37,523 bases of DNA, taken from IMG/VR virus record IMGVR_UViG_3300029813_000077, positions 1-37,523 of that record. One strand, written 5' to 3'. Positions 742 through 4,951 of the stretch are shown here, in pieces. Numbering within the stretch: position 1 is the stretch's first letter; the number at the start of each line of letters is the position of its first letter. A model generated the notes under the pieces. The model ran no database searches and was not told the origin of the DNA. It saw only the letters and a program-made list of their open reading frames with translations. The position numbers and the translations under genes are program-made. Source of the DNA: a virus.

Positions 742-969
742 ATGACCAGACAATACAAAGATAAGCTATTCGATACACTATGGGTAAAACATTTAGCTAC
801 GTTTGACGAATTATGCCAATATAAACAACGTGCTACTCATAACATATTAGAAAAACGTAATAGACATAAATACTGGTACTGTGTATGTACGACCTGCAAT
901 AAAATCTACGTTATACGCTCTGATTATTTATCTCGCAAAGTATGCCGATGCCAAAGAAAAAAGACTTGA
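742..969 (+). CDS. Small Cys-rich basic protein, 75 aa
   Basis: Starts at ATG 742, seven bases after the previous stop. Lysine- and arginine-rich, with a CxxC (CTTC) and a closing CRC, a probable zinc-ribbon pair separated by about 17 residues. The pattern resembles small phage DNA-binding zinc ribbons, but the family is not recognised. Its stop codon overlaps the -35 of the next promoter (966-971), so the following gene forms a separate transcription unit. Confidence 0.6.
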   Translation: MTRQYKDKLFDTLWVKHLATFDELCQYKQRATHNILEKRNRHKYWYCVCTTCNKIYVIRSDYLSRKVCRCQRKKT

Positions 970-994
970 CATCAGTTTAGTAATATGTTATGAT
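966..994 (+). promoter_or_regulatory. Consensus sigma70 promoter, leaderless type, copy 1
   Basis: TTGACA (966-971), 17-bp spacer, TATGAT (989-994) with extended -10 TGT at 986-988. Seven bases separate the -10 from the ATG at 1002, so transcription would start at or one base before the start codon. The 16-mer TATGATAGTGATTATG is repeated exactly at the promoter ending at 1483. Strong by consensus; the leaderless start is inferred from geometry. Confidence 0.75.
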
Positions 995-1001
995 AGTGAT
1001 T

Positions 1002-1352
1002 ATGGACATTATGCAAACGATAAAAGATATATGCAGCCGATACTATAAAACCTATGGACTAACTGCTAAAAAAATCAATAATGGTAATTGCGATGATTTT
1101 GCAAATGATATAGAATTTAACGGTTTTGGTTGTGCTGTTTGGGGCGATGAAGATTGGTTAAACTGGTCGTTAGATATTAAGAATCATCTTGACTGGTTTA
1201 CGCATTTTGCACCTTTTCATTGTTTTATATGGTATGAAGGTAAATACTATGATAGTGAATGCCCAGAAGGTTGCGAGTATGCTGACCAATTACCATTTTA
1301 TCAACGCCAAAAATGGATTGAGAACACAAGACGCAGATTACAGGTAGTTTAG
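1002..1352 (+). CDS. Putative papain/transglutaminase-fold protein, 116 aa
   Basis: An upstream in-frame ATG at 990 lies inside the -10 box and would not be transcribed, so 1002 is chosen. Residues near 30 read NGNCDDFA and residues near 75-90 read FHCFIWYEGKYYDSE. Cys, His and Asp/Glu in that order and spacing recall papain-like folds (NlpC/P60, transglutaminase-like) seen in small phage proteins that contain a yDaE motif. A cysteine hydrolase acting in the infected cell is possible. The strong leaderless promoter suggests early expression. The family assignment is inference. Confidence 0.6.
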   Translation: MDIMQTIKDICSRYYKTYGLTAKKINNGNCDDFANDIEFNGFGCAVWGDEDWLNWSLDIKNHLDWFTHFAPFHCFIWYEGKYYDSECPEGCEYADQLPFYQRQKWIENTRRRLQVV

Positions 1353-1354
1353 TA

Positions 1355-1454
1355 CCAACCGGCCAGCGTTCGTCCAACATAGAGCACGTCCGGGCTTCGG
1401 ATTATGTCCGATAACAGTATTTATCAGGTTTCCCGGTATTTCTCGATATTTTAG
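1355..1454 (+). other. Structured spacer with alternative hairpins
   Basis: About 100 nt with no gene. TCCG, CGGA and TCCG occur in succession near 1390-1412, so the middle CGGA can pair with either neighbour; the two hairpins exclude each other. ACCGG near 1360 could pair with CCGGT near 1435. It follows the 1002 gene and precedes a new promoter, so termination or mRNA 3'-end protection is plausible. No U-tract is present. Confidence 0.3.
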
Positions 1455-1483
1455 TTGACATTACATTTCAATTATGATATGAT
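1455..1483 (+). promoter_or_regulatory. Consensus sigma70 promoter, leaderless type, copy 2
   Basis: TTGACA (1455-1460), 17-bp spacer, TATGAT (1478-1483) preceded by TGA as an extended -10. A second TATGAT overlaps at 1473-1478. The ATG is at 1491, again seven bases after the -10. The first 11 bases TTGACATTACA also occur in the promoter at 2735. Confidence 0.75.
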
Positions 1484-1490
1484 AGTGATT

Positions 1491-1658
1491 ATGAAGATAT
1501 TTATAGACAAAAAGAAAATACAAATGATATCAGTAACAGGACGATTTTACCAGATAAACTGGCAATTATTCTGTTATTTGAAAAACCATAAGATTTTATT
1601 TTCAGTTAAAAAATGGGATGGACAATTTTGGCCGAGTTTTTTATGGCGGACAACATAG
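1491..1658 (+). CDS. Hypothetical basic protein, 55 aa
   Basis: Starts at ATG 1491, the first start downstream of the expected transcription start of the preceding promoter; earlier in-frame starts overlap promoter elements. The product is rich in Lys, Phe and Trp and ends in a WxxxFWPSFLW patch. It has no cysteine pair and no clear membrane segment. Not recognised. Leaderless expression from a strong promoter suggests an early host-directed role. Confidence 0.5.
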   Translation: MKIFIDKKKIQMISVTGRFYQINWQLFCYLKNHKILFSVKKWDGQFWPSFLWRTT

Positions 1659-1671
1659 CCGATAGTGGCTA
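1656..1671 (+). promoter_or_regulatory. Hairpin with GATA-start loop before an SD
   Basis: TAGCC-GATAGT-GGCTA forms a 5-bp stem starting at the stop codon of the upstream gene. It is followed by GAAAGTGAGG, the SD of the gene at 1692. A similar hairpin (GGCC-GATA-GGCC) precedes the same SD sequence at 3616-3638. It may affect ribosome access or mark an mRNA end. Confidence 0.4.
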
Positions 1672-1691
1672 ATTGAAAGTGAGGATGTAAT

Positions 1692-1838
1692 ATGAGTAGC
1701 TCAATAGATTGGTTTGAATGTCCTAAGTGTGGCGGTGATTGTACTGCTTATCGTGAACAGGATAATAGAACGTGTGAAGTTTATTGTGGTTGTTCCCAAT
1801 GTGATTGGCACGGTGAACAACCTGTTAATGAAGACTGA
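1692..1838 (+). CDS. Zinc-ribbon protein, 48 aa
   Basis: Preceded by AGTGAGG 8-14 bases upstream of the ATG. Contains CPKCGG near residue 10 and a second pair (CSQC) near residue 35, with WHGE after it. This is a classic two-knuckle zinc ribbon resembling the Lar-like restriction alleviation family, whose members are of similar length (consensus CPFCGG ... C...GC). Lar-type function, protection from host restriction, is an inference from the motif pattern only. Confidence 0.65.
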   Translation: MSSSIDWFECPKCGGDCTAYREQDNRTCEVYCGCSQCDWHGEQPVNED

Positions 1839-1853
1839 AAGTGAGGATATAAA

Positions 1854-2381
1854 ATGAAAACAAATATTTTAGTGCAATATCAAGGTGGCGGATATTCCGG
1901 TTGTTATTGGGAGTGGAATTACTTTTACATCGACAAGCAGGGAACGTTTCACGATATTTATTCGTCCGGCAGGAAAGCCGTTACCAGCATCGAAAACGCT
2001 AAAGAGTTATTCTGGGCTGATTGTAGTGGAACATACATTTACGACCTGAACAACAAGCAGGATATTGAGACGTTCAGCAAAGAAGCACATCCTGTCCATA
2101 TCTCCGGCGTTTTACAGTGGTTTGAGGATAATCCCAATATTGGTATAGAGTTTTTCGCTGTATGTTCGGCTTGCAGGTGTGAAATAGATAGCTGCGATGG
2201 CATGATTATTGAAGACGAAAATCTGTTTTGTATTGAATGTTACTCAATCGGTGAATGCCCTTGTTGTGAATCTTATGTAGGTGAAACTAATATGATACAG
2301 GTAAACCCAGACGAACATCACGACTACAATTATATCTGCTCTGACTGTAAGGAATATCACGATATAGAACGGGGGATATGA
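1854..2381 (+). CDS. Two-part protein with C-terminal zinc knuckles, 175 aa
   Basis: SD AGTGAGG matches that of the gene before it. Residues 1-100 form an aromatic-rich segment (QGGGYSGCYWEWNYFY near the start) seen in phage hypothetical proteins. Residues 103-170 contain CSAC, CIEC, CPCC and CSDC pairs with HH and YH residues, enough for two zinc sites as in LIM/RING-like treble clefs. It could mediate protein-protein contact with host factors. Function not recognised. Confidence 0.65.
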   Translation: MKTNILVQYQGGGYSGCYWEWNYFYIDKQGTFHDIYSSGRKAVTSIENAKELFWADCSGTYIYDLNNKQDIETFSKEAHPVHISGVLQWFEDNPNIGIEFFAVCSACRCEIDSCDGMIIEDENLFCIECYSIGECPCCESYVGETNMIQVNPDEHHDYNYICSDCKEYHDIERGI

Positions 2382-2382
2382 C

Positions 2383-2490
2383 ATGATAACGAAAAAAGAC
2401 TTTAAGGCGATAGCGAAGATTATCAGTAATATAACACTAACAACGATGAGGTCAAGTAGTAAAACAATTCAAGAAACGAGTATGGCATAG
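2383..2490 (+). CDS. Short hypothetical, 35 aa, possibly a truncated gene
   Basis: ATG starts one base after the stop of the 1854 gene and reads MITKKDFKAIAKII, an N-terminus typical of short phage proteins. After about 17 residues the composition changes to a serine/threonine-rich tail. In another frame the DNA reads NNDEVK, which would fit the expected continuation. This suggests a frameshifted, shortened copy. It could also be intact and simply short. Confidence 0.35.
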   Translation: MITKKDFKAIAKIISNITLTTMRSSSKTIQETSMA

Positions 2491-2512
2491 CGAGCAGGAA
2501 AGGTGGTGTAGT

Positions 2513-2731
2513 ATGAAAGCCGGAAAAACAAATATCGAAATTGGTACTCGGATAAAAACAACAAAAACTTGGGATGCAACAATTATCACCGGCACAATTA
2601 CACACTCTTTTGGCTGTTTTGGAATGTATGATTATGGTGCGATTGCAGGAATCTATATCGATAAAGAATATCAATCTCAATTTGGTGAAACTGGAAATTT
2701 AATGAAAAATGACTTTGAATTATGCAAATAA
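2513..2731 (+). CDS. Hypothetical protein, 72 aa
   Basis: SD AAAGGTGG lies before ATG 2513. Predicted mainly beta from alternating residues (IGTRIKTTKTWDATIITGTI), possibly an SH3-like or small barrel fold. No metal motif or membrane segment. It ends four bases before the third TTGACA promoter, closing this transcription unit. Confidence 0.55.
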   Translation: MKAGKTNIEIGTRIKTTKTWDATIITGTITHSFGCFGMYDYGAIAGIYIDKEYQSQFGETGNLMKNDFELCK

Positions 2732-2734
2732 CCC

Positions 2735-2763
2735 TTGACATTACAGAACAAATATAGTATAAT
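2735..2763 (+). promoter_or_regulatory. Perfect sigma70 promoter, leaderless type, copy 3
   Basis: TTGACA (2735-2740), 17 bp, TATAAT (2758-2763), both consensus hexamers. Six bases separate the -10 from ATG 2770, so the A of the start codon is the expected +1. No SD can exist on this transcript. Confidence 0.8.
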
Positions 2764-2769
2764 ACTATT

Positions 2770-2934
2770 ATGAATCAGATACAACAAACATCCTTGTCAA
2801 TACAAGATATTACAGAACACCATACAATGTTGGAACAACAGCATTGTATTGACCTATTCCTGCCAGCAGACCGTAGGCAGGAAGTGGCTGACGAAATGTT
2901 AGAACGATTTTGCGATACTTTTATAGGGGATTGA
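2770..2934 (+). CDS. Small acidic protein, 54 aa, leaderless
   Basis: Starts at the predicted +1 of the perfect promoter. Gln/Glu-rich; a helical region after residue 20 contains LFLPADRRQEVADEMLERFCDTF. No recognised domain. The next gene follows after two bases. Leaderless translation needs the 5' ATG, which supports this start over the internal ATG. Confidence 0.55.
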   Translation: MNQIQQTSLSIQDITEHHTMLEQQHCIDLFLPADRRQEVADEMLERFCDTFIGD

Positions 2935-2936
2935 TT

Positions 2937-3089
2937 ATGTATCAAGTAGGCATGATTGTAAAATTTGAAAACGGTACAGAAGAGCAAAAGAAATTTGACT
3001 TCTGGAGCGAAGCATTGGCCTGGGTAGAATATCTTGCAAACGAGAATGAGTCTATTCCAGCAGATGTAAAAATGTGGATAATTAGATAA
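2937..3089 (+). CDS. Hypothetical protein, 50 aa
   Basis: Begins two bases after the stop of the leaderless gene; an upstream TAGGGGA can act as a weak SD within its end. Sequence MYQVGMIVKFENGTEE suggests a short beta hairpin followed by a helix with SEALAWVEYLANEN. Compact alpha/beta protein of unknown role, probably translationally coupled. Confidence 0.55.
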   Translation: MYQVGMIVKFENGTEEQKKFDFWSEALAWVEYLANENESIPADVKMWIIR

Positions 3090-3101
3090 TGGAGAATCAA
3101 A

Positions 3102-3287
3102 ATGAAATTGATTAAAGAAACAGCATGGATGTTTTGTCGAGAATGTAAAAAATTCGATAATGGTGAACATCCAGACCGACCATGTAGCGGTAAAGCATTC
3201 GATTTTGTTGTCAAGGATGATGTAAAGTTTATGGATGAGTGCGGTTATGAATTTGATGAAAGTATTATAAGTGAGGTAAAACCATGA
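3102..3287 (+). CDS. Small Cys-containing protein, 61 aa
   Basis: TGGAGA precedes ATG 3102. CRECKKF near residue 13, a Cys near 28 (RPCSGK) and one near 47 (DECGYEF) could bind zinc. This matches small phage proteins with a CxxCxxF...RPC pattern of unknown role. It overlaps the next gene by ATGA, indicating coupling. Confidence 0.6.
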   Translation: MKLIKETAWMFCRECKKFDNGEHPDRPCSGKAFDFVVKDDVKFMDECGYEFDESIISEVKP

Positions 3288-3562
3288 AACTTTATCGCGT
3301 ATATACAGAAAACAAAAACTATCCAGACATTCTGGACTATTTAGATAAGCAATTTCCAGACGGTTATACCGTACTTCATGCAGACGGAGCATGGCAGGGA
3401 CAGCGTGAGAAGTCACTGGTAGTTGAAATCATAGATGATAGGTACGATACAGACACTTATTACCACGAAGAAATTGAGTGTTTTGTCTATTGGTTGAAAA
3501 AACATAATGGCCAACAAGCAGTTATGGTACAAATTATCAATGTAGATATTCCTTCTCTTTAG
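3284..3562 (+). CDS. Hypothetical protein, 92 aa
   Basis: The first residues read MKLYRVYTENKNYPDILDYLD, then a glycine-tryptophan segment (HADGAWQGQREKSLVVEI) and a C-terminal helix plus strand (AVMVQIINVDI). The G-W-G-x-E-K-S-L-x-x-E-I pattern is one I associate with conserved small phage proteins, but I cannot name a characterised member. An alpha/beta ferredoxin-like fold is plausible. Coupled by ATGA to the gene before it. Confidence 0.6.
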   Translation: MKLYRVYTENKNYPDILDYLDKQFPDGYTVLHADGAWQGQREKSLVVEIIDDRYDTDTYYHEEIECFVYWLKKHNGQQAVMVQIINVDIPSL

Positions 3563-3566
3563 CGTG

Positions 3567-3628
3567 TAGCATGACACGGTTGACCGCCGTGTTGTGCTAT
3601 GGATTATGGTTTTATGGCCGATAGGCCG
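3567..3628 (+). ncRNA. Two adjacent RNA hairpins in a spacer
   Basis: The first is a 13-bp stem (3567-3579 with 3587-3599) with a 7-nt loop TTGACCG; two of its pairs are G-U, which would be broken in the opposite strand, so the fold belongs to plus-strand RNA. The second is GGCC-GATA-GGCC (3616-3627) just before SD GAAAGTGAGG. No U-tract follows either. Possible mRNA processing or stability element, attenuator or small RNA. The start TAGCATGAC recurs at 4213-4221. Confidence 0.45.
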
Positions 3629-3644
3629 GAAAGTGAGGTATTAA

Positions 3645-4220: not shown

Positions 4221-4271
4221 CCTGTATACGTAAATGCAGAGCAGGTCAAGATAAGGATTGAAAGGGTTTGA
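4221..4271 (+). pseudogene. Relic of a duplicated gene 3' end
   Basis: In frame this reads PVYVNAEQVKIRIERV then stop. The end of the intact gene at 4613-4951 reads NAEQVKIRIEKV then stop, and the DNA matches at 30 of 32 positions (4232-4263 against 4912-4943). A TGA at 4218 interrupts the frame upstream. This is the tail of a second copy left by duplication or recombination. TGACCTG/CAGGTCA (4218-4224, 4242-4248) can form a stem within it. Confidence 0.6.
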
Positions 4272-4616: not shown

Positions 4617-4951
4617 AAGAGCAAGAACAAAATTTATTAGATGCAGCACGAGAAATTGTATATGACTTTAATCATTATGGAGAAGTATTACAAACTGGTG
4701 ATAACGGGGAATATGGTACAGAAAGCTCTATCGGTATGTTAAGTACTGCGATACATCAGTATAAAAACAGCATACCAGCTAAATCCCAACACGGCCGTGA
4801 GTCGGACGAGGTGAAACCGCTGGCTCAGTATTTAAGTGAACATATTAACGATGAACTCGACTATGACGTTACATGGCGTGAATTGCTCGAACAAATACTC
4901 GATGCGTATGAAAATGCAGAGCAGGTTAAAATAAGGATTGAAAAAGTATGA
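4613..4951 (+). CDS. Acidic helical protein, 112 aa
   Basis: Two helical regions, residues 1-25 and 60-110, flank a glycine-rich loop (TGDNGEYGTESSIG). The end carries TWRELLEQILDAYENAEQ, part of which is duplicated as a relic at 4221-4271. Overlaps the HTH gene at 4948 by ATGA, so the two are translated together. Not recognised. Confidence 0.6.
   Translation: MKEQEQNLLDAAREIVYDFNHYGEVLQTGDNGEYGTESSIGMLSTAIHQYKNSIPAKSQHGRESDEVKPLAQYLSEHINDELDYDVTWRELLEQILDAYENAEQVKIRIEKV

Follow-up and report, generated by a model that had tools for sequence, protein, structure and literature searches.

The early region of the phage analysed here carries three near-consensus promoters, each followed so closely by an ATG that the predicted transcript would begin with the start codon itself. 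We consider it likely that the mRNAs of the three first cistrons are leaderless and begin with a 5'-AUG, and that the cistrons further along the same transcripts are led by Shine-Dalgarno (SD) sites. The layout is real, recurs among relatives and is conserved, and it is well explained as a set of leaderless early genes. What appears to be new is that a promoter family is repeated in the early region and that orthologous genes behind it switch between modes of translation start.

Genomic context

The window, i.e., the whole stretch of DNA analysed, corresponds to a single IMG/VR virus record with a length of 37,523 bases. A rightward block from ~560 to 22,200 comprises small genes together with those for replication (DNA polymerase, exonuclease, Sak4-like annealing protein, primase and HNH endonuclease); from ~22,200 on, the genes are large, leftward and mostly without a family match. 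The phage is lytic-looking, and the position of the three genes next to the replication genes suggests that they are expressed early. No DNA match to positions 900-3600 was found by blastn among 50,697 phage records, and the relatives of the DNA polymerase and primase in annotated phages are remote (<30% identity). A profile search of bacterial genomes with the polymerase found no relative. The 989-aa late protein yielded a single weak local match, in a Candidatus Zixiibacteriota MAG, which is insufficient for a host call.

Positions 1-560 form an AT-rich, non-coding left end in which AATAAAGTGCTA is repeated, with two copies at 473-514 and an inverted copy near 215; these repeats could be operators or an origin. 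Within the early block, a 45-nt direct repeat (4227-4271 and 4907-4951, 84% identical) ends, in both copies, in gene-start regions.

Promoters and start codons

The features discussed below are as follows.

742..969, + strand: small ORF with an SD, 75 aa, ending in a TGA (967-969) that falls within the -35 of promoter 1
966..994, + strand: promoter 1, TTGACA (966-971)-N17-TATGAT (989-994), extended -10 TG
1002..1352, + strand: putative leaderless gene 1, 116 aa; predicted +1 at A1002; no SD; orthologues present
1455..1483, + strand: promoter 2, TTGACA (1455-1460)-N17-TATGAT (1478-1483), extended -10 TG
1491..1658, + strand: putative leaderless ORF 2, 55 aa; no SD; between promoter 2 and the leader
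1653..1691, + strand: leader element AACATAGCCGATAGTGGCTAATTGAAAGTGAGGATGTAAT, with a short hairpin (AGCC/GGCT) and an SD (-8.1); the next gene, at 1692, is SD-led
2735..2763, + strand: promoter 3, TTGACA (2735-2740)-N17-TATAAT (2758-2763)
2770..2934, + strand: putative leaderless gene 3, 54 aa; predicted +1 at A2770; no SD; orthologues present

The sequence-only reading had described three TTGACA-N17-TATRAT promoters with an ATG 6-7 nt past the -10, and both direct inspection of the sites and a pattern search bear this out. The -10 is separated from the ATG by AGTGATT (7 nt) at promoters 1 and 2 (ATG at 1002 and 1491) and by ACTATT (6 nt) at promoter 3 (ATG at 2770). A search of either strand of the window for TTGACA-N16-18-TATRAT returned these three matches and no others; shuffled versions of the window gave 0.12 matches on average, and none reached three. 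From base composition, the probability of an ATG 6 or 7 nt past all three -10s is ~7.5e-5. Promoters 1 and 2 share a 16-mer, TATGATAGTGATTATG, which occurs exactly twice in the window, as had been claimed. Since the -10 and the ATG account for nine of its bases, the 7-nt discriminator alone carries extra information; the probability that two unrelated 7-mers are identical is ~9e-5.

Bacterial RNA polymerase starts most often 7 bp past the -10, on a purine preceded by a pyrimidine (PMC5730371). At 966 and 1455, a T occupies position 7 past the -10 and the A of the ATG position 8, while at 2735 the corresponding positions are 6 and 7; all three therefore predict a transcript that starts with AUG. 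The promoter geometry thus places the predicted +1 on the A of each ATG (1002, 1491 and 2770). The distances from the upstream stop codon to the ATG are 32 nt (1002), 138 nt (1491) and 38 nt (2770). Promoter 3 begins 4 nt past the TAA stop of the upstream gene, and at 966 the -35 itself contains the upstream TGA, as is also the case in a related locus, L004.

Shine-Dalgarno sites

SD strength was measured as the duplex energy between the 20 nt before the ATG and the anti-SD. The values for 1002, 1491 and 2770, at all of which the start codon is ATG, are -0.2, -0.2 and +0.7 kcal/mol, i.e., no SD site, compared with a median of -2.3 for random 20-mers of the region. Inspection of the sequence before the nearest internal in-frame ATGs of the three genes revealed no convincing SD either. 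For 45 other + strand starts, hand-picked from the ORF list (three were entered 1 nt off, with no effect on the median), the median is -6.9, and 38 of them stand at -3 or lower, in agreement with the earlier statement that other genes have strong SD sites. The accompanying proposal, that the phage runs two translation modes, is supported in part, at the sequence level, by the leaderless layout, the conservation in orthologues and the SD-led neighbours; within the window, it is better read as a leaderless first cistron with SD-led cistrons downstream.

Conservation of genes 1002 and 2770

Relatives were collected through the DNA polymerase (~15 close loci with 65-84% identity, plus a more distant set of 14) and through the protein of gene 1002, which added L019 and L020. 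The L019 orthologue of gene 1002 (67% amino-acid identity) has the leaderless layout with an identical 7-nt spacing. L011 has the same promoter, but with the ATG 14 nt further away and behind an AAGGA SD (-5.6 kcal/mol). The leaderless layout of gene 2770 is found in the window, L018 and L004, with spacing and frame preserved; in L007 the gene stands behind a strong SD (-10.6), and its L011 copy is promoterless and forms an ATGA overlap with the upstream gene. Judged from these alignments, the same gene changes its predicted start mode across relatives. A scan with gene 2770 added one locus, L270, where that gene is arranged as in L018; a profile scan with gene 1002 gave nothing beyond the known loci.

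Gene 1002 is under purifying selection (window-L019: dN 0.20, dS 0.68, dN/dS ~0.3). The same is true of gene 2770, in which dN is well below dS (window-L018: dN 0.28, dS saturated; window-L011: dN 0.15). The frames set by these two ATGs are therefore real genes.

The gene 1002 protein has no Pfam match and no PDB sequence match; its AlphaFold model is of low confidence (mean pLDDT 63), and a PDB search with that model gave no significant fold. The family keeps the motifs N-G-x-C-x-x-F-A, H-C-F-I and Y-D-S-E, whose C, H and D residues, by the way they are ordered and spaced, hint at a papain-like enzyme. The non-coding stretch 3' of the gene (AACCGGCCAGCGTTCGTCCAACATAGAGCACGTCCGGGCTTCGGAT..., window 1340-1454) is partly conserved (L011 1408-1525 and L018 505-560), and in L011 the part just before the promoter is likewise conserved with it. 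This stretch, which has no match in an Rfam search, is possibly an RNA element or terminator.

The promoter family in related phages

A matrix built from the extended -10 promoters detected 21 sites in the close set, scoring 23-38; the few other sites above 11 all fall below 16. All 21 belong to the early region and point the same way as the polymerase gene. The discriminator among relatives tends roughly towards WGTRATT. For counting, we considered sites in close and distant relatives with the TG, a 17-bp spacer and a match at 11 or more of the 12 hexamer positions. An ATG lies exactly 6 or 7 nt past the -10 in 18 of these 33 extended -10 sites, and almost none is found at neighbouring offsets. 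As background, we used 150 unselected viral promoters from a promoter-only scan of IMG/VR for TTGACA-N12-TATGNTATAAT sites, in which 15 have an ATG at 6 or 7, against 6.75 expected from the mean elsewhere. The difference (18/33 vs 15/150) gives a Fisher p of 7.5e-8, an optimistic value because some sites are orthologous and the effective number is smaller. Another 120 loci, from a scan requiring an ATG at 5-6 nt, were chosen for their leaderless-like layout and were not used as background.

The core family comprises about five orthologous groups of genes with a clear leaderless layout. Six of the 18 ATG-spaced sites open only mini-ORFs (1-6 codons long in five cases, 7 codons in the sixth), and an SD-led gene then follows several of these. 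At L006 4276, L011 3118 and L015 3678, the same promoters precede a 5'-terminal ATG that opens a mini-ORF of 4-6 codons; these run over the SD of the next gene and are candidate 5'-uAUG leaders.

Two further sites were rejected as clean leaderless cases: L151 2036, where the in-frame ATG at codon 13 has an SD-like AAGGGA before it, and L150 2745, where GAGGG precedes two close ATGs. In a distant relative, L152, a leaderless-looking gene (625-1067, 136 aa) matches the putative metallopeptidase family DUF6782, and is the sole leaderless-looking gene in this collection with a hint of function.

ORF 1491 and the adjoining leader

ORF 1491 is the weaker member of the three. No relatives were found among the 31 family loci, and the ORF has no Pfam match and no convincing PHROG match. 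The equivalent promoter of L004 and L018 leads straight into a leader, (A)ACATAGCCGATAGTGGCTRATTGAAAGTGAGG, with a small hairpin and an SD; in the window, the same leader stands 3' of ORF 1491 (1653-1691). The simplest reading is that the ORF was gained, or lost elsewhere, exactly between the promoter and its leader; the alignment covers the shared leader only, and the distance from promoter to leader was read from the promoter-site scan of the relatives. Behind the corresponding promoter of L011 stand ATG TAG and another leader.

The leader (window 1653-1691, L004 2168-2205, L018 1042-1085) consists of a hairpin, AGCC-GATAGT-GGCT, and an SD, GAAAGTGAGG. The pairing of the hairpin is preserved through G-T changes in L004 and L010, and a similar hairpin with GAAAGTGAGG occurs at window 3612-3644.

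Proposed mechanism and alternative explanations

The arrangement can be pictured as follows. Near-consensus promoters of the host type (sigma-70/A) are arrayed across the phage early region, and the host sigma-70-type polymerase would start at the A of the AUG, as the promoter geometry predicts. The first cistron would then be translated at the 5' AUG of a leaderless mRNA; we infer translation from this codon because there is no SD, no SD-led internal start was seen and the reading frames are conserved. From the general biology of leaderless mRNA, the 5' AUG would be bound by 70S ribosomes, and the downstream cistrons on the same transcripts would be translated through their strong SD sites. 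The start mode of a given gene is evolutionarily exchangeable, i.e., leaderless, SD-led or coupled to the upstream gene. Compactness is a plain reason for the layout, since at 966 and 2735 promoter and ATG fit within 32-39 nt of the upstream stop. Escape of leaderless translation from initiation-factor control, raised in the sequence-only reading, would depend on conditions according to the literature: IF1 and IF2 usually stimulate, and IF3 enhances, inhibits or is required (PMC9031893). A broader proposal, which we regard as doubtful, is that the early promoter family serves as an exchangeable cassette. Small changes in the interval from -10 to ATG would tune the start mode of each first gene (leaderless, SD-led or coupled), and the leaderless genes would make up a distinct early translation class that responds to the state of the ribosome during infection.

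The ATG at +1 might instead reflect the initiation preference of the polymerase only, the promoters serving downstream SD-led genes and the 5' ORFs being incidental 5'-uAUG mini-cistrons. Unselected viral promoters do show such a preference, with A at position 7 in 81 of 150 and T at position 8 in 66 of 150, as well as the mild ATG excess noted above (15 vs 6.75 expected), and a polymerase preference for A then T at the start can account for part of the ATG enrichment. The mini-ORFs before SD sites at L006 4276, L011 3118 and L015 3678 fit this explanation, as does ORF 1491, which adjoins a leader that elsewhere directly follows the promoter; 5'-uAUGs are, moreover, known in E. coli (PMC4965119). 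Genes 1002 and 2770, however, extend over 116 and 54 codons, are conserved and under purifying selection in the frame of the ATG, and have no other SD-led start, and the family rate (18/33) is far above the rate given by base preference. We therefore consider this explanation improbable.

Translation mainly from longer upstream transcripts by coupling or re-initiation, with the leaderless transcripts of little importance, seems more improbable still. The ATGA overlap of the promoterless gene 2770 in L011 makes coupling possible for this gene, and the upstream genes end 32-38 nt before the ATGs at 1002 and 2770, yet ATGs that lack an SD and lie 32, 138 and 38 nt past the upstream stop are poorly placed for coupling, and the gap is filled by a promoter in the window, L018 and L004. 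That the three promoters adjoin ATGs by chance we find scarcely credible: the sequence is AT-rich and has frequent small ORFs, but the probability of ~7.5e-5 applies within the window alone, and the orthologue alignments, in which the same spacing is preserved, disfavour it. Leaderless first cistrons with SD-led cistrons downstream remain our preferred reading.

Significance and comparison with known systems

Phage genes outside a few host groups are mostly assumed to need an SD leader, and annotation pipelines that seek an SD would miss or misplace starts such as these. The family amounts to a natural experiment that sets two routes to translation initiation side by side: the same gene and promoter, leaderless in one phage and SD-led in another, provide matched pairs for testing the viral role of leaderless initiation.

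Leaderless phage genes as such are already known, from lambda cI, phiYS40 and the Cluster O mycobacteriophages. In the open-access literature, we found no description of a repeated early promoter family, in SD-using phages, with orthologous first genes that are variously leaderless, SD-led and coupled. Among the closest systems are the Cluster O mycobacteriophages (Corndog and others), with predicted promoters PL1, PR2 and PL2 at which the +1 coincides with the start codon's first base (PMC4351075). Their hosts are actinobacterial, among which leaderless genes are common, and no switching of orthologues between start modes was found described for them (PMC4351075); the window shows no nucleotide relatedness to them (blastn of 900-3600, 50,697 phage records). 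Gene 90 of mycobacteriophage Adephagia is also predicted to be leaderless (PMC11373665).

In the Thermus phage phiYS40, most middle and late transcripts are leaderless, and after infection IF2 rises and IF3 falls (PMC3594737); phage genes have leaderless mRNAs in both systems, those of phiYS40 being middle and late, whereas those of the window would belong to the early block. Lambda cI is likewise translated from a leaderless mRNA (PMC9031893, PMC4965119), but is a single repressor gene in a lysogeny circuit, unlike the several small genes with near-consensus promoters described here. A -10 directly upstream of the ORF, giving a leaderless mRNA, is common in Deinococcus-Thermus (PMC12340547); that pattern is cellular, genome-wide and often without a -35, in contrast to the full -35/-10 promoters of a phage that otherwise uses strong SDs. 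Finally, in the 5'-uAUG mRNAs of E. coli, a 5'-terminal AUG is followed by an SD-led cistron (PMC4965119). The mini-ORF sites of L006, L011 and L015 resemble these mRNAs, whereas in the window the predicted 5' AUG goes beyond upstream mini-ORFs and opens real genes.
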